Notes under the pieces: generated by a model
The model's database searches: none
What the model saw: the letters and a program-made list of their open reading frames with translations, nothing else
What the model was told of the DNA's origin: nothing
Position numbers and translations under genes: made by a program
DNA from: Candidatus Benthortus lauensis
GTDB taxonomy: Archaea > Thermoproteota > Nitrososphaeria_A > Caldarchaeales > Wolframiiraptoraceae
DNA length: 33,588 nt
Direction: 5' to 3'
Assembly (NCBI GenBank): GCA_021650775.1
Contig: JAHSRM010000024.1
Span: 1-33,588 of the forward strand
Part shown: positions 23,697-33,041 of the stretch, piece by piece
Position numbering within the stretch: position 1 is the first letter of the stretch
How the letters are laid out: each line of letters begins with the position of its first letter

Positions 23697-24398
23697 TTAG
23701 TTAATCCTCACGGGAAGGTCTAGGTCGTCCAAGATTATCTCGCCGCTCCTAGTTAGGTGGAGTTTCATGGCCCTGACCTCAACCCCTGCCCTGACGGCCT
23801 CGGCCAGCGCATCGCTTATCCCGGGGTCTATCGCCCTGTTGGGCCTGAAGAACCTCACGTATGGGTGGCCTGAGATGAAGAGTATCCCTGTCCTGGCCCC
23901 GAGTTTCCTGAGCTTTGTGAGGACCCTTATCTGCCTCAACCCCCTAATCGATGGGGCGTCTGGATACGTGGCCGCTCCATCCTCCTCCAGCAACGTGGCC
24001 GACTTGACCTCTAGGAGCAGGTTCCCCTTCTCAGGGGAGCGGAGCAGGTAGTCTATCCTAGAGCCCATCCTCCTAACCTCCCTCGACCTCACCCTGTATC
24101 CCCTAAGCCATCGAATCATGTCCTTCTCCAATAGCTCCTCGAATATGCGTTGGTGTAGCTGGGTGTCTATGAGGGCTGCCTCATGGTTCAAGAGTATGCC
24201 AACGAGCCTTCCATGGGTTCTCGGCCCAGGCTTCTCCACGTATAGTGCCTTGGCTCCCCTCCAGATTAGGTCCCTGAGCCTGCCCGTGTTCGTTAGATGT
24301 AGTCGGAGTATCCTGCCGCCTGCCTCCACCTTCACGGTAACCCTGCTGTCCCGCTCGATTACCCTTGCTTCCCTCGTCTTAAGCCTCCCTAACCTCAT
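23697..24398 (-). CDS. sfsA: SfsA family protein (sugar fermentation stimulation homologue)
   Basis: 233 residues from the ATG at 24398 (MRLGRLKTREARVIERDSR). SfsA signatures: HLTNTGRLRDLIWRGAKALYVEKPGPRTHGRLVGILLNHEAALIDTQLHQRIF, RIDYLLRSPEKGNLLLEVKSATLLEEDGAATYPDAPSIRGLRQIRVL, and a DPGISDALAEAVRAGVEV segment. The E-V-K core resembles a PD-(D/E)XK nuclease fold; the biological role is unknown. The track's extra 48 N-terminal residues are low-quality sequence inside the upstream gene and are left out; the chosen start overlaps that gene by 20 bp. Confidence 0.9.
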   Translation of the reverse strand: MRLGRLKTREARVIERDSRVTVKVEAGGRILRLHLTNTGRLRDLIWRGAKALYVEKPGPRTHGRLVGILLNHEAALIDTQLHQRIFEELLEKDMIRWLRGYRVRSREVRRMGSRIDYLLRSPEKGNLLLEVKSATLLEEDGAATYPDAPSIRGLRQIRVLTKLRKLGARTGILFISGHPYVRFFRPNRAIDPGISDALAEAVRAGVEVRAMKLHLTRSGEIILDDLDLPVRIN

Positions 24399-25164
24399 CA
24401 CCAGCCCTTCCCGGCATCCAGTATAGCTTCTCGGCAACCCACTTCTCCACGGCCTCCGTGAAAGGCATGTAATAGACGTATTCACGTATGAATCTGATAT
24501 GCTCCTTGACGAGCTTCTCGGCCGTCTCGTCGTCCACCTCACCTTGCCTCCTTAGGATTCTCCTGAGTATCTCTAGGGGAGGGAAGTGGTATGGTTGGCC
24601 GAGATACTTTATCCATGTATCGTATAGGTCTTTGAGGTTCTCCTTCATTTCCTTGGCCTCGAACCCGGAGACGCAGAGTATCCTGCCGTATCCTGAGCCG
24701 TTCTCCGAGATGTAGTTTGCCTCCCTCTCCAAAGCCCTCTCCGAGGACTCAACACCACGCTTAACCACGTCAATCCACTCATCGACCTTAACCTCCCCCC
24801 TAACCGCATCCCTGACAGTCAGCAAGGCTATCTTCAGGGCAAACTCCGCATCCTCCCTGAATGACTCGTCATCCTGATAACAATATACGTCGATTTGCTC
24901 GGATATGTTTGGGAGATGTTTTAGGATAATCTCATGCTCTTTTATCCATGCTCCGCTCGGCTGGGGCAACCAAGGGTCCTCCATCACCTCCTCCATGAAC
25001 TCCTCGTAGCTCGCCTCCTCCCTCAGCTTCCGCACATACTTCTCCATCCGCTTGGGGAGGTTGAGGAACAGTGCCTCGGGCCTCAGCCTCCTTATACTCT
25101 TAACAGCCTCGATTGCCCCCCTCCTTGTCGGGGGCTTCACAACTATCCCCAAGCTCGGCCTCAT
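24379..25164 (-). CDS. Uncharacterised archaeal protein (261 aa)
   Basis: Soluble, mainly helical. The N-terminus RRGAIEAVKSIRRLRPEALFLNLPKRMEKYVRKL, then EEDPWLPQPSG-like and IKEHEIILKHLP, recalls TraB/erythromycin-esterase-like and DUF5682-type proteins, in which an early 'parent/child' strand is followed by lengthy helices, but I cannot confirm this. Remaining segments (DAEFALKIALLTVRDAVRGEVKVDEWIDVV; YVYYMPFTEAVEKWVAEKLYW) show no known active site. Translationally linked to sfsA and argF downstream. The TTATAT near 25195 on the minus strand would give a leader of a few bases. Confidence 0.6.
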   Translation of the reverse strand: MRPSLGIVVKPPTRRGAIEAVKSIRRLRPEALFLNLPKRMEKYVRKLREEASYEEFMEEVMEDPWLPQPSGAWIKEHEIILKHLPNISEQIDVYCYQDDESFREDAEFALKIALLTVRDAVRGEVKVDEWIDVVKRGVESSERALEREANYISENGSGYGRILCVSGFEAKEMKENLKDLYDTWIKYLGQPYHFPPLEILRRILRRQGEVDDETAEKLVKEHIRFIREYVYYMPFTEAVEKWVAEKLYWMPGRAGDEVREA

Positions 25165-25249
25165 GAAGCCTATGAAGAGAGGGCTTTAGGAGGAATATAA
25201 CCATGGCTCCCAGGAATTTTTTATTAATGGGTGTGAGATTGAGTTGCCT

Positions 25250-25792
25250 ATGAATCTAGGCCAGGAGCCGCCTATCAGCCCTCCTCTGCCACCTCCAGGA
25301 GACCCTGCAGTATTCCTCGCAGACCTTGCATGGACTCTTGCCAGAAGCCTGATAACCTTCGTTATCTGTTTCGTGTTGGGGCTGATTGGTATAAGGCTTC
25401 TCGACAAGATTACCCCTAGAATCAAGGAGATTGAGATGATTAGGGGTAAGCCTGTCCCAACGGCGCTCTACTCTTCAGGCTTCTTCATCTTCCTGGGCCT
25501 AATCTTCTACGCCTCCGTGGTCTCGCCGCTACCCATAGGGCTTGTGACGGGGGTGGGATACACTGTTACGCCTGTTCAGCTGGTGGCATATAAGCTGATA
25601 ACCATGCTGGCTGGACTCGGGTTCTCCCTCCTGTTCGCAGTAATCTTCTACAGGGTTATGGCCATAATCGAGCCGTTCGGGATAGACCTCGACGATGTCC
25701 AGAAGGAGCCGATAGCGGTAGGCGTATACGTCATGGGCTACCTAATCTTCCTAGGGCTGATATTCCTAACAGTCCTGACCCTACCCGTCTAG
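25250..25792 (+). CDS. DUF350-like membrane protein with internal duplication
   Basis: 180 residues from the ATG at 25250; a TTTTTATT box about 27 bp upstream favours this over the track's TTG at 25244. Proline-rich N-terminus (EPPISPPLPPPGDP), then four hydrophobic helices arranged as two similar halves: each has an amphipathic segment, a P-x-A motif, and the identical IFLGLIF (residues ~78-84 and ~168-174). Two-helix repeats of this kind are typical of DUF350 inner-membrane proteins, function unknown. Converges on the M6 protease gene with 3 bp between stops. Confidence 0.68.
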   Translation: MNLGQEPPISPPLPPPGDPAVFLADLAWTLARSLITFVICFVLGLIGIRLLDKITPRIKEIEMIRGKPVPTALYSSGFFIFLGLIFYASVVSPLPIGLVTGVGYTVTPVQLVAYKLITMLAGLGFSLLFAVIFYRVMAIIEPFGIDLDDVQKEPIAVGVYVMGYLIFLGLIFLTVLTLPV

Positions 25793-25795
25793 ACA

Positions 25796-27475
25796 TTACC
25801 TCAATCTTTTTCCACATCTCCAGCAGTAGAGTGAGTCCTCGTATACTTGCGCTCCACAGACAGGGCATGATGCTATCATAATCGGTGGGGGTGGTGGAGG
25901 CCTCCGCCGACGCATAGAGGCTATGAACCCGGCGGCCATCAACACGACTATTAGGACGAGGAGTAAGGTCCATAGATTGATTCCTCCTTCCGCCTCAACG
26001 GGAGCCTCGGCCTTCTTTGTAATAGTTGTTGTAAGAGTTATTGTCTGGGTTACAGTTCTTACCTCGCCCTCCACAGTGGTTGTCACAGTCTCTGTAACGG
26101 TTATTGTCGTGGTAGTTGCGGTTACTTCCTCTTCTTCCTCGCCTCCTGTCTCAGGCTGCTGGACAGGCTTCTCGCTGAATATCCTTATCCTGAACCTTCC
26201 TGAACCCTCATCATACGAGAGGACCTCCACGCCGAACTTGTCTTTATCGCTCCAGAACCTGGGGTTCTCGAAGTTTAGGGTAAACCTACCCCACTCATAG
26301 GTCTTTCCCAGATTATATGGTGCGTCAAGCTTTATGCAGACACTCCAAGTGGCGAAGTTGTCCTCGAACTGGGTGCAGTCGGGGGTCTGGGGATTAGCGT
26401 CATAGAGCCTGACCATAAAGTTGTCCTCGACTGTTCTTGGAAGCATCTTATTGACCTTGAATACTACCACGCCTTCTCCCGGTAGCTGGGCATCGATTAG
26501 GTTCCTCCTTCTAGCATGTATGAAGTAGTATTCCTCCTCGTTTTCGGGCATATTCACTTTTACGGCTTTCGGCTCGCCGTCCGAGTCGAGTGTATATATC
26601 TCGATTTCCTCGTCCACGGGTATGGTGTATTCCACCACATCTATCCATCCGAGTATGTATTTGCTCCACCCATCTATATCCGCTCCTATGAAGGCTCCAG
26701 CATCCATATTTGACCAGAACCCCACCTCCGAGCCCTTCGAGTATCCATCCTTGGCATAGATGTATTGGTCGGCTATACCCATGCTGTGTGTTAGCTCATG
26801 TATCATAACGTTCATGTCCTCTTCCTCGCTCACGGTCTCAATCCCGAATATGGCGTGCCACCCACCATCCCTGGTGGGCAGGTAAAGTATCCCGGCAAAC
26901 TGTCTTAGGGTGCTCTCGGGAAGGCTCCTTATAACAGGCCCTAGGCAGAGGCAGTGGCTCCAGATATCGTTAGGGTTCCCTGTAACAGCCTCATCTCCAC
27001 CCGCATGTATAACAATCACATGGTTATATTCTCCGAAGTCTATATCCGTCTTCCTCAAAACGTAATCCGTTATCGTTAGATAATATTCCGCTATTTTCTT
27101 GAAGTTGTCTCCCCTCTGGGCTCCGGGTTCAGGGGCTCCGTAGTATGAGTAGGTTCTGGGGAGGGTTATTGGCTCGGGGTAGATTGTGTATTCGATGGTC
27201 ATCCTTCCATAGGAGGAGGCCGTAAACCAGTTCTTCACTATCTCCATCATCTCCTCTATATCGGCCAAACTCCTCCTAAACTTCACATCACTGAACTCGA
27301 CCATCAGGACGAGTGTCCTCTGGACGCCTGTCACAGGCCTAGGCTTCCATGGAACCCAGGGATGCTCAACCTGCTTAACCTCATATTTGGGCAAGGGAGA
27401 GTAGGCGGCGACAACACCTAACGACACCAATGATATAACCAGTAATGTGATAAGTAGGGTCGGGAACCTGCCCAT
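25796..27475 (-). CDS. Membrane-anchored M6-type zinc metalloprotease with cytoplasmic zinc ribbon
   Basis: 559 residues. Signal peptide (~4-24). Residues ~50-260 match the M6 (immune-inhibitor-A-like) peptidase: VQRTLVLMVEFSDVKF, WFTASSYGRMTIEYTIYPE and the active site HELTHSMGIAD (H226, E227, H230, G233, D236). A beta-rich region follows, then a Thr/Val stalk (~455-505), a transmembrane helix (~513-535), a basic stop RRRRPPPPPP, and a C-terminal zinc ribbon CPVCG...CWRCG. The protease should act outside and the ribbon inside, which is unusual for the family. Last gene of the four-gene operon. The stalk runs in the GC-mixed region. Target unknown. Confidence 0.85.
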   Translation of the reverse strand: MGRFPTLLITLLVISLVSLGVVAAYSPLPKYEVKQVEHPWVPWKPRPVTGVQRTLVLMVEFSDVKFRRSLADIEEMMEIVKNWFTASSYGRMTIEYTIYPEPITLPRTYSYYGAPEPGAQRGDNFKKIAEYYLTITDYVLRKTDIDFGEYNHVIVIHAGGDEAVTGNPNDIWSHCLCLGPVIRSLPESTLRQFAGILYLPTRDGGWHAIFGIETVSEEEDMNVMIHELTHSMGIADQYIYAKDGYSKGSEVGFWSNMDAGAFIGADIDGWSKYILGWIDVVEYTIPVDEEIEIYTLDSDGEPKAVKVNMPENEEEYYFIHARRRNLIDAQLPGEGVVVFKVNKMLPRTVEDNFMVRLYDANPQTPDCTQFEDNFATWSVCIKLDAPYNLGKTYEWGRFTLNFENPRFWSDKDKFGVEVLSYDEGSGRFRIRIFSEKPVQQPETGGEEEEEVTATTTTITVTETVTTTVEGEVRTVTQTITLTTTITKKAEAPVEAEGGINLWTLLLVLIVVLMAAGFIASMRRRRPPPPPPIMIASCPVCGAQVYEDSLYCWRCGKRLR

Positions 27476-27490
27476 GGACGGGCACCCTAT

Positions 27491-27928
27491 CTAAACATAT
27501 TTTTCACATGAGTAGCAATACCATCTCTGATACTGTTCTATGAATGTTAGGGGTTTCCCGCATGAGGGGCAGAGGGGTTTCTCACCCGACTTCGGGATAA
27601 CCTTTGATATTATCCCCTTTATGCCTCCTAGCTTTGATTGCTGCTGTGTTTGTTGCTGTATCCGTGGGGCTTGGACTGCTGGCGAGGGTGCGGCGGCCTC
27701 CACCTCAGGCTCCTTCACCTCTATCTTCTCCTTGAGGATTACTATGTCTCCGACGGCGGATATCTTACTCCACTCTATCAGCTTTATTGACTTGTCCTTC
27801 GCCATCACCTGGATCGCCATCTCTCCCTCTCCAACCGGAAGGGCTATATCCTCAACAACACCCACATAGGTTCCATCAGGATTGTATACATGCATCCCGA
27901 TTAGCTTGCTGCGGGGGACGTGGCCCAA
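27491..27928 (-). CDS. PRC-barrel plus zinc-ribbon protein
   Basis: 145 residues. N-terminal ~75 residues are a PRC-barrel: KLIGMHVYNPDGTYVGVVEDIALPVGEGEMAIQV and KISAVGDIVILKEKI. A Pro/Gln-rich linker (AAAPSPAVQAPRIQQQTQQQ) leads to a C-terminal zinc ribbon CPSCG...CYSCEKYV. No signal or membrane helix, so cytosolic. PRC barrels usually mediate regulated assembly with a partner. TTG start; a TATA-like TTATAAAT overlaps the upstream gene's stop, so a second promoter is possible. 15 bp upstream of the M6 protease, whose own tail is also a zinc ribbon. Confidence 0.8.
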   Translation of the reverse strand: MGHVPRSKLIGMHVYNPDGTYVGVVEDIALPVGEGEMAIQVMAKDKSIKLIEWSKISAVGDIVILKEKIEVKEPEVEAAAPSPAVQAPRIQQQTQQQSKLGGIKGIISKVIPKSGEKPLCPSCGKPLTFIEQYQRWYCYSCEKYV

Positions 27929-27962
27929 GGAGCATTCACCCTTAATGGGTTTGCGTCCCGGT

Positions 27963-29162
27963 TTATTTATAAGTCTTCTCTAGTCTGGGCAGGGCCACTC
28001 CAAGCCTCCAGCACCTCTCGAGGAATCTCCGCACATTTGACTCGATTGAGAGGGCGTGATACAGTGTTGTTGCCAGGAAGGAGGCCAAGAATATTGTTGA
28101 GAGGATTAGGGCCAGGAGTATGGCTGAGAAAACCGGGTCTCGTTTGGCGGCAAGCAGCCCAAACCCTATTACCCCCTGGATTACTGAGTAAAGCTCTATG
28201 AATTGTCTTATGCTTGAGGGTAGCCTCACCCTCCATTCAAGGCCAGTCCTCCTATCATACGCCCTCACCCCAGAGGACCTTATCACCCAGAACACCGGCC
28301 CAACGAACACGGAGGCAAGGACCATGGCTATGAAGGAGAGGTTCACTAGCTCCGCCCCTGCGAGGATTGGGTCCAGCTCCTCTATCATCGGGGCAACCAA
28401 TTCACGCACGTTAAGGTATGTTAGGACTAGGCCGAGGCTGGCTGCCATAGGGTAATAGCTCCTATCTATCAGCATGCCTATGCTTGTCCCATCCTTCCTA
28501 ATGCCCATGAACCTGAATTCCATAGACTTCATCCTCTCCCCGAAAGTCTTGGCCGTAAAGCCGAGAAGAAATCCGGAGGCCAGCCACGGCGAAAATACGT
28601 GCCACACAATCCACACACCAATTGATATAAGAAGTATTTTCAGTAATGCTAGGGAGCCTAGCAGTAATCCGGCGGCATATGGGAGCATCAGCCCTCCTAT
28701 GATGCTTAAGCTAACCAGCTTGTCCATGGACGACCTATCAGGGCTGTAGTTGCTGAGCCGCCAATCCCTCAGAGCTAGGAAGAAGGCTAGGGTCCCGGAA
28801 GCTATCAGGGATGGGGAGACCGAGAAGAGCGTCATCTCCCACGCTATCAACAGCACCATGGGCACCGTGTATCCGCCCAGAAGTATTGGGAGGGTATAGA
28901 ATATGCTGGCGGCCCAGATACCTGCGGAGACAATCACCCCATATGTTAATGGATTGTAGAATGCTCTTCTCCCCGAGGCGAGGATAAATACGAGGGAGAA
29001 CACGAGCATCCCGGGCCCCACGTCCAGAAAGAGGGTGTCAGCCACGAAAAGCTCCTCGAGGGTTAACCCGGGGGCAAGGAACTCCAGATATGCGCCATAT
29101 ATCGTTGCGGCCAACCCTATTGGAAGCAACAACAGTCCAGCAAATCTAAGGAGCCTCCTCAC
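27963..29162 (-). CDS. Polytopic membrane protein, unknown (399 aa)
   Basis: About nine or ten hydrophobic helices with a cytoplasmic loop in the middle (TAKTFGERMKSMEFRFMGIRKDGTSIG) and a basic C-terminus. I do not recognise a transporter, protease or polymerase signature. Its GTG lies 2 bp after the preceding stop (TAGACGTG) with GGAGGCGAG upstream, so it is translated together with the exported protein before it. Operon position suggests a membrane partner of the M6 protease and PRC protein, by inference only. Confidence 0.75.
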   Translation of the reverse strand: MRRLLRFAGLLLLPIGLAATIYGAYLEFLAPGLTLEELFVADTLFLDVGPGMLVFSLVFILASGRRAFYNPLTYGVIVSAGIWAASIFYTLPILLGGYTVPMVLLIAWEMTLFSVSPSLIASGTLAFFLALRDWRLSNYSPDRSSMDKLVSLSIIGGLMLPYAAGLLLGSLALLKILLISIGVWIVWHVFSPWLASGFLLGFTAKTFGERMKSMEFRFMGIRKDGTSIGMLIDRSYYPMAASLGLVLTYLNVRELVAPMIEELDPILAGAELVNLSFIAMVLASVFVGPVFWVIRSSGVRAYDRRTGLEWRVRLPSSIRQFIELYSVIQGVIGFGLLAAKRDPVFSAILLALILSTIFLASFLATTLYHALSIESNVRRFLERCWRLGVALPRLEKTYK

Positions 29163-29164
29163 GT

Positions 29165-30481
29165 CTATAACTCGCCTCCCCTAATCCTAACTTTGTAATA
29201 TATTGCGAGGGAGACCATTATTATTGTGGAGGCAATCAATGTGTAGGGTAATCTTATGGGCGACCGTGGAGACTCCTCGCCCTGACGCTTATACTTACCC
29301 TTGATTAAAGCCAGCCAGGATGACAGGAGGGCGGCTGACTCCAATCTCCCCACATACTCACCTGCACCAACGTCATAGTAGCCCTCCGAGACCACCTGCT
29401 CGGAAACCTGCCTCACAACGTCATCAACAAGCCCACGAATCCATGAAGAAAACTCCTCATCCACATCCATGATGTAGGATGCAAGTAAGATTATGTTTGA
29501 TGGAAAAACCAAGTCCCTCTTCCACACAAACTCATTTACGAATAAGTCCTCCGGCTGTATCGTCGGGTCAAGCACATAGACGGAGATTTTAGGGAATGGG
29601 AGCTCCCTTATCTTGGAACCCCGTATCCACAGCTCGGAAACATCCCGGATTTTTTGCCTAAGTATTCCCAAGACTTCCTCGTTTCCACCGGCCAGATAAG
29701 ATGCTATCAACGCCTGAATCAGCGCCACATCCACCCAATACTCCTCCTCTCTTACATCCCTCTTCTCCAAGTCTATTAGGGTCTGGTTCTCCAAGGTCAT
29801 TCTCAGGGCCTCCAACTCTATTAACGGGCCCTCGACGCTCTTCGCCGCAACGGTATAATGGGATAGGATTGTGAGTGCTGTTAGCTGGGAATGGAGGGTC
29901 TGCGCTGAATAGTTTAGGAACTCCCTGTATCTGGATGATAGCTCATCCTCAATATCCCTTAGATCTTCTTCATTAGGGGTGAGGCCGAGGACAGTTCTCA
30001 CGAACAACGAGTATGATAGGAATCTGGAGTAGGAGATTTCAGGCCTCCAACCCAAGTTCTCCGCCAAGCTGTCTGCTAAATCCTTCATGCTTAGCCTTGT
30101 GTCGGGGTCGTTTCTCAGGGCATAATGTAGTGAGAGGAATTCGAGGGCTTGGATATGTTTGAGAAACTGTTCATAAGATTTCTCGGGGGGCCATGGACCG
30201 ATTATCAGCTCATCACCGGTCTTAACAGCCTCATTAACCCTCTTAGCGGCCGTGTCGAGATAACGGATAGACTCCTCATCACCCACTCCAACATATACAT
30301 AGTATGCTAGGACGCCTAGATACGACAGCCCCCTAACATCATCAACGGAGCCAAGCTTCCCGGCAACATACCTCCGAATAACAAGCAGAGACTCCTCCGC
30401 ATCATCGATAAGAGACCCTGAGACAGACGACAAGAGAAGCGAGAACACCATTAAGAGAACAATAAAATGCCTCCAACACAC
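29165..30481 (-). CDS. Exported, C-terminally anchored helical protein, unknown (438 aa)
   Basis: The track ORF begins at 30640, but TATATAAAA at 30505-30513 puts transcription start near 30483, two bases from a GTG at 30481. From there the N-terminus CWRHFIVLLMVFSLLLSSVSG is a good signal peptide, whereas the longer version is not. The exported part is mostly helical, reminiscent of alpha-alpha repeat proteins (YLGVLAYYVYVGVGDEESIRYL; LHSQLTALTILSHYTVAAK) without cysteines of note. A C-terminal helix (LIASTIIMVSLAIYYKV) anchors it. First gene of the four-gene protease operon. No family recognised. Confidence 0.72.
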   Translation of the reverse strand: MCWRHFIVLLMVFSLLLSSVSGSLIDDAEESLLVIRRYVAGKLGSVDDVRGLSYLGVLAYYVYVGVGDEESIRYLDTAAKRVNEAVKTGDELIIGPWPPEKSYEQFLKHIQALEFLSLHYALRNDPDTRLSMKDLADSLAENLGWRPEISYSRFLSYSLFVRTVLGLTPNEEDLRDIEDELSSRYREFLNYSAQTLHSQLTALTILSHYTVAAKSVEGPLIELEALRMTLENQTLIDLEKRDVREEEYWVDVALIQALIASYLAGGNEEVLGILRQKIRDVSELWIRGSKIRELPFPKISVYVLDPTIQPEDLFVNEFVWKRDLVFPSNIILLASYIMDVDEEFSSWIRGLVDDVVRQVSEQVVSEGYYDVGAGEYVGRLESAALLSSWLALIKGKYKRQGEESPRSPIRLPYTLIASTIIMVSLAIYYKVRIRGGEL

Positions 30482-30504: not shown

Positions 30505-30513
30505 TATATAAAA
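30505..30513 (-). promoter_or_regulatory. TATA box of the four-gene protease operon
   Basis: TTTTATATA on the minus strand, centred about 28 bp before the GTG at 30481. It fixes the start of the exported protein and of the operon transcript. Confidence 0.6.
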
Positions 30514-30679
30514 CTTGAACCCTAAGAGCATATTTAAACTCAACTATCCAGGCCATGATTAAAATGCACTTCATAAACACTAAGGAGAATAAGCTTCTTA
30601 ATTCTGTAGAGGATAGATTTAGAAAGATTCGATTATGCAAAGAAAATGGATGAATTGTTGCTGAATGAATAAATGTGCG

Positions 30680-30710: not shown

Positions 30711-31529
30711 ATGGGAAGCAGGAGATTTTTTCTTAAGCTTTTAGCCTTCTCAGCTCTCATAGCACCATTCATACCGATAGGCAGATATCTACAACGCAGG
30801 GAGAAGGTGGACCAGATTAAACAGAGGGTAGCAAACATTAACGAGCTTAAATCTCTAGGCGAGATTAACTTCGTCTTCCCAAGAACTGGAGACCCTGAGC
30901 AAGATATGGACCCCTTTAGACAATATGCCCTAATTCTTACGCCCACGGGGGAGGTCAGGGCCCTGAGCAGAGTCTGCGTCCATCTCTGGTGCCTATGGAA
31001 ATATGACCCGAACTTAGCAGAATGCATATGCCCATGCCATGGAAGCGTCTATAACCCGGACACAGGAGTGGCAACCAAAGGACCAGCATACTATCAACCC
31101 TATCCAACCAATGCTTTACCCATGCTTAAAGTAGAGCTAAATGAGGATGGTGACATATATGTATCCCAGCTTGATGGAATAGTAGGATATGGTCGTGAAT
31201 GGAAGAAAGACCTAGCAAACATACAATCAATGTTGAGGAAAGCCCCAGACAAAGAGATACGAGCATACACGCCGTTCTGGAAATCCATAACAATAACTGA
31301 GACGGAGAAATTAATTAGGCGGTATAATATAAAAGTTTTGAAAATTTATGGATATGTGAAAAGAGGTAAAGAGACTGAATGGCTTGTGGCTGGAAGTCTT
31401 GATGAAGCGAAAGAGAAGATGGAATGGGTGTATAGTATTGAAATCTTCGCTAAACCTGGTGAAATACTTAAAGTAGCGGATGATGATAGAGTTATAATCC
31501 CGATGATTAGAGGTAATGTGAAACCATGA
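30711..31529 (+). CDS. Tat-exported Rieske iron-sulfur protein
   Basis: 272 residues. A twin-arginine signal/anchor SRRFFLKLLAFSALIAPF opens the protein. The [2Fe-2S] ligands are C89 and H91 (CVH) with C107 and H110 (CPCH); C94 and C109 sit where bc-type Rieske proteins form the stabilising disulfide, and GPA after the second box matches the Pro loop. An extra C105 is unusual. After ~165 comes a roughly 100-residue soluble domain of unknown kind. Expected to carry electrons on the outer face of the membrane. No cytochrome b or other complex III gene is adjacent. AT-rich codon use differs from the ribosomal and transporter genes. Confidence 0.87.
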   Translation: MGSRRFFLKLLAFSALIAPFIPIGRYLQRREKVDQIKQRVANINELKSLGEINFVFPRTGDPEQDMDPFRQYALILTPTGEVRALSRVCVHLWCLWKYDPNLAECICPCHGSVYNPDTGVATKGPAYYQPYPTNALPMLKVELNEDGDIYVSQLDGIVGYGREWKKDLANIQSMLRKAPDKEIRAYTPFWKSITITETEKLIRRYNIKVLKIYGYVKRGKETEWLVAGSLDEAKEKMEWVYSIEIFAKPGEILKVADDDRVIIPMIRGNVKP

Positions 31530-32107
31530 ACATATTACTGCCTGTATTCTATGTCAGCACAACCCTAATAATCGTTTTTACAGCTACATCATACCTCCTT
31601 AAGATAGATTTATGGCCAACCCCCGATAAACCACTAAGAACAAGTCTATTCCTAATTCTTGGAAATTTATGGATCATCGCAAACCTCTATCTAGCATTCA
31701 TACTTAGTATTCAGCAGCCCTCATACCTAATATTCCAGAGCATCATATGGAAACTATTGGCAACCTTGATGATTTCATTATCAATTATATTGTCTCTCTG
31801 GGCCTGGAAGGTATTTGGCTTAAAGAGGATACTTGGATTTAAAATCAACAAGATTATCACAGATGGACCATACAGGTATATGAGGCATCCACAATACTTT
31901 GCCATAGCTTTAGCTACTTTAGGATTAGCCATCCTAATCAATACTTCATATATGTTAGTCTTCTCCATATCAACAATAATCACTTTCTACCTAATTGCAT
32001 TATTTGAGGAAAGAAAACTTTCAAGTATATTCGGTGAGGAATATATGAGGTATAGGAGGAAAACTTCGCTTATCTCTCTATTTATCAGAAAAAGAAAGAG
32101 AACATAA
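31526..32107 (+). CDS. Isoprenylcysteine O-methyltransferase-like membrane methyltransferase
   Basis: 193 residues, about five hydrophobic helices. The C-terminal block ITDGPYRYMRHPQYFAIAL...EERKLSSIFGEEYMRYRRKTS is the SAM-binding signature of the ICMT/PEMT family. Archaeal substrates are unknown; lipid, quinone or protein carboxyl/thiol methylation are possibilities. It overlaps the Rieske stop by 4 bp (ATGA), implying coupling. AT-rich like its partner. Confidence 0.82.
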   Translation: MNILLPVFYVSTTLIIVFTATSYLLKIDLWPTPDKPLRTSLFLILGNLWIIANLYLAFILSIQQPSYLIFQSIIWKLLATLMISLSIILSLWAWKVFGLKRILGFKINKIITDGPYRYMRHPQYFAIALATLGLAILINTSYMLVFSISTIITFYLIALFEERKLSSIFGEEYMRYRRKTSLISLFIRKRKRT

Positions 32108-32159
32108 CGATAAATCATCGGCCCGGATTGCTAATGTTTAAAATAATTGCCTAAGATTT

Positions 32160-32174
32160 TTTCATTTAATGAAA
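32160..32174. promoter_or_regulatory. 15-bp palindrome upstream of the YHS gene
   Basis: TTTCATT-T-AATGAAA, perfect 7-bp arms, 8 bp upstream of the TATA box (32182-32187). The position suits a regulator that assists or blocks initiation; the TRASH-domain regulator encoded next door is the obvious candidate. Confidence 0.4.
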
Positions 32175-32181
32175 GCGCATG

Positions 32182-32187
32182 TTTATA
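32182..32187 (+). promoter_or_regulatory. TATA box for the YHS gene
   Basis: TTTATA in GTTTATATTC, centred about 36 bp before the ATG; predicts a leader of around nine bases. Confidence 0.45.
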
Positions 32188-32220
32188 TTCACTTAGATGA
32201 TGATTTATTTGTGATTGGAT

Positions 32221-32376
32221 ATGGTTGAGAAGGTTAAAGATCCGGTATGCGGGATGGAGGTTGAGACGACAACTGAGTTTAGGTCCGAGCATATGGGAAA
32301 GACCTATTATTTCTGCTCTGAGAACTGTAAGAAAGAGTTTGAGAAAGACCCGCACAGATTTCTTCACGGCCACTAA
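32221..32376 (+). CDS. YHS-domain metal-binding protein (51 aa), not in ORF track
   Basis: Small ORF too short for the track. It reads MVEKVKDPVCGMEVETT, then GKTYYFCSENCKKEFEKDPHRF, the full YHS motif with C-G-M and C-x3-C metal ligands, and ends in a His-containing tail (FLHGH). YHS domains are usually attached to copper or heavy-metal P-type ATPases; a free one may act as a metallochaperone or sensor. Followed by a regulator with a related TRASH domain, in an arrangement recalling the small TRASH protein of archaeal copper clusters. No CopA-like ATPase lies in the window. Confidence 0.92.
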   Translation: MVEKVKDPVCGMEVETTTEFRSEHMGKTYYFCSENCKKEFEKDPHRFLHGH

Positions 32377-32398
32377 TCTCTTCAATTCCTTTTTAATC

Positions 32399-32420
32399 CT
32401 TAAGTAATAGTATACTTGAG
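32399..32420. promoter_or_regulatory. Imperfect inverted repeat before the TRASH regulator
   Basis: CTTAAGTA-atagta-TACTTGAG, seven of eight arm bases paired, between a TTTTTAAT box (32391-32398) and the TTG start at 32427. Probable autoregulatory site of the following gene. Confidence 0.4.
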
Positions 32421-32426
32421 ATTGTT

Positions 32427-33041
32427 TTGGCCTTGAAATTAGATTCTATCGATTATAGGATTCTTTTCATTTTGCAGAGTGAGGGGAGGATCTCTATACA
32501 AGAGTTGGCTCGTAGGGTTAGAGTGAGTGTTCCGACGATACGTCAGAGGTTGAGTAGGCTTTTGAGTGAGGGTGTTATTAGGGGGTTTACTGTTCTCCTG
32601 AATCCCAGATATATCTCCGGTTATCATGATGTTTTCATATGGATTAATGTTAAGCCGTCTGAGATAACTCAGGTAGTGAATAAATTGGTTGATATGGAAG
32701 AGGTTTTGGGGGTGTATCGTATTATTGGCGAGCATGACTTACTCGTAAGGGTGGTTGTCCAGAGCTACGCCGACCTCGACGAGTTTATATCTAGGAGGCT
32801 TTCCTCAATCAGGGGTATACTAAGTCTGAGAACCAACATGGTCATAAACGTCCTTAAGGATAACCCTGGGCCGAGGCTCATGCCCGGAATGGGTTTAAGG
32901 GTTTATTGCGCCGTATGTGGTAAGGAGATCGACGGCAGGCCTATTAAACGTAGAATTGATGAGAAGGAGTATTACTTGTGCTGCTCCACTTGTGCATCCT
33001 ACTTCGATAAGAAGACGGCCATGGGTAGGCTGATTAAGTGA
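32427..33041 (+). CDS. Lrp/AsnC-type regulator with C-terminal TRASH metal-sensing domain
   Basis: 204 residues. HTH at ~8-55 (LDSIDYRILFILQSEGRISIQELARRVRVSVPTIRQRL), a RAM-type ferredoxin-like domain ~60-145 (VLGVYRIIGEHDLLVRVVV), then a TRASH domain ~158-200 with CAVCGKEIDG...YYLCCSTCASYF, i.e. C-x2-C and C-x3-C ligands. Family knowledge: CopT/CopR-like archaeal proteins of this design sense copper or other soft metals. It starts at TTG (a second TTG two codons on). It probably controls the YHS gene 50 bp upstream and perhaps the Rieske pair. Confidence 0.92.
   Translation: MALKLDSIDYRILFILQSEGRISIQELARRVRVSVPTIRQRLSRLLSEGVIRGFTVLLNPRYISGYHDVFIWINVKPSEITQVVNKLVDMEEVLGVYRIIGEHDLLVRVVVQSYADLDEFISRRLSSIRGILSLRTNMVINVLKDNPGPRLMPGMGLRVYCAVCGKEIDGRPIKRRIDEKEYYLCCSTCASYFDKKTAMGRLIK

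Follow-up and report, generated by a model that had tools for sequence, protein, structure and literature searches.

In this study, we asked whether four closely spaced genes of Candidatus Benthortus lauensis, an archaeon of the order Caldarchaeales, encode parts of one cell-envelope system, and whether this system connects a protease on the outside of the cell with partners on the inside, as had been proposed in an earlier note on this DNA. The stretch analysed, 33,588 nt in length and here called the window, comes from a genome of 1.47 Mb in 112 contigs. All four genes lie on the minus strand. HEL (29165-30481, GTG start) is predicted to encode a signal or N-terminal helix, an alpha/alpha-toroid ectodomain and a C-terminal TM helix; POLY (27963-29162, GTG start) a ten-helix membrane protein with both termini inside, as judged from the charge pattern; the PRC/ribbon gene (27491-27928) a PRC-barrel with a C-terminal zinc ribbon and no TM helix, its TTG start agreeing with the orthologues in an alignment; and M6 (25796-27475, ATG start) a signal peptide, a catalytic domain, a Thr-rich stalk, a TM helix, a Pro run and a zinc ribbon. 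The tight order that the note had described is present in full, with gaps of 2, 34 and 15 bp, and the profile searches that it had called for confirmed the M6 and PRC domains and returned no Pfam or NCBIfam family for HEL or POLY. Its further claim of one clear leaderless promoter holds in part. The TATA-like box TTTATATA (30505-30512, minus strand) ends 23 nt before the HEL GTG and suits a leaderless start of this gene; however, a second box, TTTAAATA, lies beside it at 30531-30538, and another TATA-like box, CTTATAAA (27966-27973, minus strand), overlaps the end of POLY, ahead of the PRC gene, and is a possible promoter of PRC and M6 alone. Because of TTTAAATA and, with more weight, CTTATAAA, the predicted single transcript from a single promoter is not established. 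In the whole window, the pattern YTTAWAWA was found nine times, with about three expected. Beyond HEL and divergent from it, positions 30711-33041 encode a Rieske protein, a PEMT/ICMT-type methyltransferase and an Lrp-type regulator with a TRASH domain.

Whether the grouping extends beyond one genome, which the note had set as a test, was addressed in a sample of 398 Thermoproteota genomes, with 44 searchable genomes of the order Caldarchaeales. Homologues of all four genes occur together in four other Caldarchaeales genomes (G033, G014, G011 and G025), and in a fifth (G037) no more than 3 kb separates M6, HEL and POLY. Since the four genes recur together in this way, their grouping goes beyond chance, and from sequence comparison we consider it very probable that they form a functional set, of which no description was found in the literature. 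The gene orders are informative in themselves. A gene for a four-TM protein of the YjfL type, DUF350 (25244-25792, plus strand; PF03994, E=2e-12), is convergent with M6 in the window at a distance of 3 bp, and in G033 the order is DUF350-M6-HEL-POLY-PRC, all in line. G014 and G011 have, likewise in line, DUF350-c5-c4-M6-HEL-POLY-PRC, with two additional genes, c5 and c4, before M6. In G025, DUF350-c5-c4-M6 faces a convergent HEL-POLY pair, with PRC divergent upstream of HEL, and in G037 HEL-POLY follows 2.9 kb further on from DUF350-c5-c4-M6, the contig ending after POLY. The set is made of two modules, HEL-POLY-PRC and DUF350(-c5-c4)-M6, which co-occur and are usually adjacent.

This arrangement raises the alternative that comes nearest to our best explanation, namely that two separate systems, a ribbon-linked envelope module (HEL-POLY-PRC) and a protease module (DUF350(-c5-c4)-M6), share a neighbourhood and each act alone. 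Such a separation is a possible, if somewhat doubtful, reading. It is suggested by G024 and G027, where DUF350-c5-c4-M6 and HEL-POLY-PRC are at separate loci, by G031, which has HEL-POLY-PRC without a member of this M6 clade, and by G008 and G039, which have M6 without POLY (in G039, DUF350 is followed by an M6 broken across contigs); the TATA-like box before PRC-M6 in the window points in the same direction. Against it stands the co-occurrence of the modules: the M6 clade is present in 10, POLY in 9 and both in 8 of the 44 genomes, for which Fisher's test gives p=2e-6, a value that overstates the surprise as the genomes are related and not independent. Counted by genus, 6 of 14 have POLY, and these include all 5 that have M6 (about 0.003, by hand arithmetic). 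In addition, the modules are adjacent in 6 of the 8 genomes that have both; these six include genera of three families and differ in gene order.

The protease itself matches Peptidase_M6 above the cut-off (PF05547, E=3e-7, 30.3 bits, cut-off 22) and TIGR03296 just below it (106 bits, cut-off 110.8). Its metzincin-type zinc motif, HELTHSMGIAD (residues 226-236; 26768-26800, minus strand), is intact: H226, E227, H230 and D236, as well as M257 of the Met-turn, are invariant in nine aligned orthologues. Nine further genomes of the order encode orthologues, in one case split over two contigs, and the eight complete ones show 42-46% identity in an alignment; no further close member of this clade was found in the sample. 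The one member from outside the order is on L069 (1-3528), a 3.5-kb contig binned as Terriglobia, where DUF350 lies beside an M6 protein ending in a CFI-box-CTERM domain; we suspect that this contig is mis-binned, and it may be archaeal. The earlier note had regarded an anchored M6 with a ribbon inside the cell as the key feature, and both the TM helix (about residues 501-521 by hydropathy; 25913-25975, minus strand) and the ribbon (residues 537-554, CxxC...CxxC; 25814-25867, minus strand) are there. However, the ribbon is a variant of the window genome, found in none of the eight complete Caldarchaeales orthologues, which stop soon after the Pro run apart from that of G025, which ends in an unrelated extension. 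The most constant partner of M6, missing from the note, is DUF350, which adjoins M6 or the c5-c4-M6 run in 10 of 10 genomes and also on L069; the c5-c4 pair of the sister type was likewise overlooked. On the far side of M6 in the window, a 261-aa ORF without a family match (24379-25164) overlaps an ORF holding SfsA.

M6 peptidases are commonly secreted degraders, and the same genomes encode other, longer M6 paralogues, so that the protease may be seen as an ordinary nutritional enzyme which digests environmental protein at the cell surface, the neighbours being bystanders or peptide-handling proteins. This is unlikely, in that no peptide transporter was recognised in the conserved set, which keeps DUF350 and HEL-POLY instead, and every complete orthologue from Caldarchaeales retains the stalk and TM anchor.

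Exactly the same 9 of the 398 Thermoproteota genomes have HEL and POLY of this type, as neighbours in all nine, and the two are an obligate pair. For both proteins, sequence and fold searches gave no clear relative in the PDB (sequence searches of the PDB with M6, HEL, POLY and c4 yielded nothing usable). The predicted structure of HEL (pLDDT 85) is largely helical, an alpha/alpha toroid, and its fold matches GH76, GH88 and GH105 enzymes and the complement TED with Foldseek probabilities near 1 but E-values of 0.009-0.2. Among nine HEL sequences, E222 is the only acidic residue that does not vary; glycosidase activity is not indicated, because a conserved pair of catalytic acids is missing. 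POLY was predicted with a pLDDT of 79, and a fold search with this model found no match in the PDB. According to the charge pattern, its positive loops and both termini are on one side of the membrane. This has a bearing on remote POLY relatives in other Thermoproteota, which have a zinc ribbon fused to one of their ends, the N- or the C-terminal one (L145:9818-11143, L146:758-2074, L147:9475-10254 and L149:3768-4526): since the termini and positive loops face one side, these ribbons should be located inside, and the fusions look like a cis version of the link that the PRC/ribbon protein would provide in trans. On L148, beside a remote POLY, a possible c4-like ectodomain was considered and discarded, as the match was not significant and a shuffled sequence scored higher.

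The c4 and c5 genes precede M6 in six loci that belong to a well-supported sister clade. Seven genomes group together in the M6 tree with 100/100 support, six with c5-c4 and the seventh, G008, with an apparent remnant; the window, G033 and L069 fall outside it. The G008 remnant is a 152-aa ORF between DUF350 and M6 (L040:10658-11116) and resembles the product of a deletion that joined c5 to the end of c4. c4 is by prediction a type I protein, made up of an ectodomain, a Thr-rich stalk, a TM helix, a Pro-rich linker and a ribbon. c5 aligns with the full-length DZR-PrsW proteins of L064 and L065; two of its members match NF033739 far below the cut-off (E=1.6e-5 and 1.4e-3), and the match to PF13367 is also below cut-off. 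The EExxK motif and the histidine(s), both present in L064 and L065, are absent from c5 in 6 of 6 cases, and c5 is best described as a probable PrsW relative without catalytic residues. The L064 and L065 proteins themselves (L064:2029-3159 and L065:1996-3189) are PrsW proteases that carry a double zinc ribbon at the N-terminus and have their motifs intact; within the order they were found in G031 and G033 only. We considered whether the window M6 took over the ribbon of c4 after c4 was lost, and found no support for this, because the tree sets the window apart from the c4-c5 clade, together with G033 and L069, and so generic a ribbon does not show descent.

These proteins bring to mind regulated intramembrane proteolysis, with M6 as the outside (site-1) protease and c4 or another ribbon protein as the cleaved transducer, whose ribbon tail would be freed inside the cell. 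A ribbon-tailed type I protein encoded before M6, together with a PrsW relative, would suit such a pathway; nevertheless it is improbable, as c5 lacks the catalytic motifs, the window genome has neither PrsW nor c5, and its match to c4, located elsewhere, is weak and confined to the Thr-rich stalk part. PrsW signalling in the window genome was accordingly dropped as a candidate.

The PRC-barrel domain of the remaining protein (residues 6-67; 27728-27913, minus strand; PF05239, E=8e-7) is followed by a ribbon with the cysteine pairs C120xxC123 and C138xxC141 (27506-27571, minus strand); like that of M6, this ribbon matches below the Pfam cut-off. The PRC/ribbon protein is present in 121 of the 398 Thermoproteota genomes, and because it is so common, it is a general protein recruited to the set; its neighbourhoods outside the set have no common partner. 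Within the set, its gene is next to HEL-POLY in 8 of 8 readable loci, and as it is so in three orientations, the link between the three genes is more than an inherited operon. A role of the protein as marker of a module for cell division or cell shape, at which M6 remodels the envelope, is highly improbable: in Haloferax, parts of the divisome are recruited by PRC-barrel proteins together with SepF, according to work cited in PMC11188069, and the PRC/ribbon protein itself is common across Thermoproteota, but neither ftsZ nor sepF nor any cdv gene was recognised in the loci read, and HEL-POLY-M6 is rare, unlike division genes. Ribbons recur on M6 in the window, on the PRC protein, on c4, on remote POLY relatives and, in G033, on two small membrane proteins encoded after PRC, whose ribbons resemble that of PRC. 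Binding of metal by them seems not to be strictly kept, because the PRC protein lacks some of its ribbon cysteines in G033 and G031, as does c4 in G025. The region after PRC in G033 (L034:13641-16355) encodes four more membrane proteins with cysteine pairs, at least two of which have PRC-like ribbons.

As the best explanation we tentatively favour, while stopping short of calling it probable, a conserved Caldarchaeales cell-envelope set centred on M6 as a membrane-anchored surface metzincin. The mechanism that we attach to it is possible, on a more guarded footing. POLY and DUF350 would form a membrane platform; the HEL toroid may present or bind a surface ligand or substrate beside M6, perhaps S-layer or glycan material; M6 would trim surface proteins; and the zinc ribbons may serve as docking sites on the inside through which the complex is coupled or positioned, hosted by M6 and the PRC protein in the window, by c4 in the sister type and by POLY fusions in distant relatives. 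In the sister type, c5, a dead relative of PrsW, may hold either M6 or c4 through a TM helix. The predicted topology fits the transmembrane assembly of outside protease and inside ribbons first proposed, but the emphasis of that proposal has to shift, with the M6 ribbon a single-genome feature, the PRC protein widespread and the modules apart in two genomes. What is at hand is a new conserved gene set made from known kinds of protein, with HEL and POLY as two membrane or exported families that have no database name. For surface proteolysis in an archaeal order that is almost uncultured, it provides a defined set of genes open to testing, and the ribbons on differing partners (M6, c4, PRC and POLY) point to a shared docking role inside the cell.

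Parts of the set resemble known systems in one respect and depart from them in others. M6 shares with the immune inhibitor A family and the TIGR03296 domain the HExxHxxGxxD-type motif, a Met after the domain core and a PF05547 match above cut-off; unlike known M6 peptidases, it has a stalk and C-terminal TM anchor, a fixed DUF350 neighbour and, in the window only, an inside ribbon. HEL may have its predicted fold in common with the alpha/alpha-toroid proteins named above, but shares no sequence signal with them and lacks a conserved glycosidase-type acid pair. Archaeal PRC-barrel division proteins have the PRC-barrel in common with the protein studied here, which is ribbon-tailed and encoded beside HEL-POLY with no division genes recognised in the loci read. 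A DUF350 membrane protein also occurs in the YjfL/DUF350 envelope operons near PspA (PMC11237479); in the M6 set, however, no PspA, CesT/Tir or polyamine genes were recognised, and M6, HEL, POLY and PRC are found instead. Finally, the sister-type loci recall ADAM17 and iRhom, as presented in PMC6451368 and PMC13277793, in that the gene of an anchored metzincin lies with one for an intramembrane-protease relative that is catalytically dead; the families are others (M6 and PrsW here), and the likeness is an analogy that applies to the sister type. By this analogy, the set could be a convergent archaeal counterpart of iRhom-ADAM17, in which a metzincin is governed by a dead intramembrane-protease relative in the sister type, or by HEL-POLY in the window type, and interchangeable cytosolic ribbons carry the inside signal. 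We regard this as a long shot, with the dead PrsW relative beside the anchored metzincin in six sister-type loci but c5 absent from the window genome; if true, physical control of an anchored metzincin in these archaea would parallel a regulatory principle known from animals.
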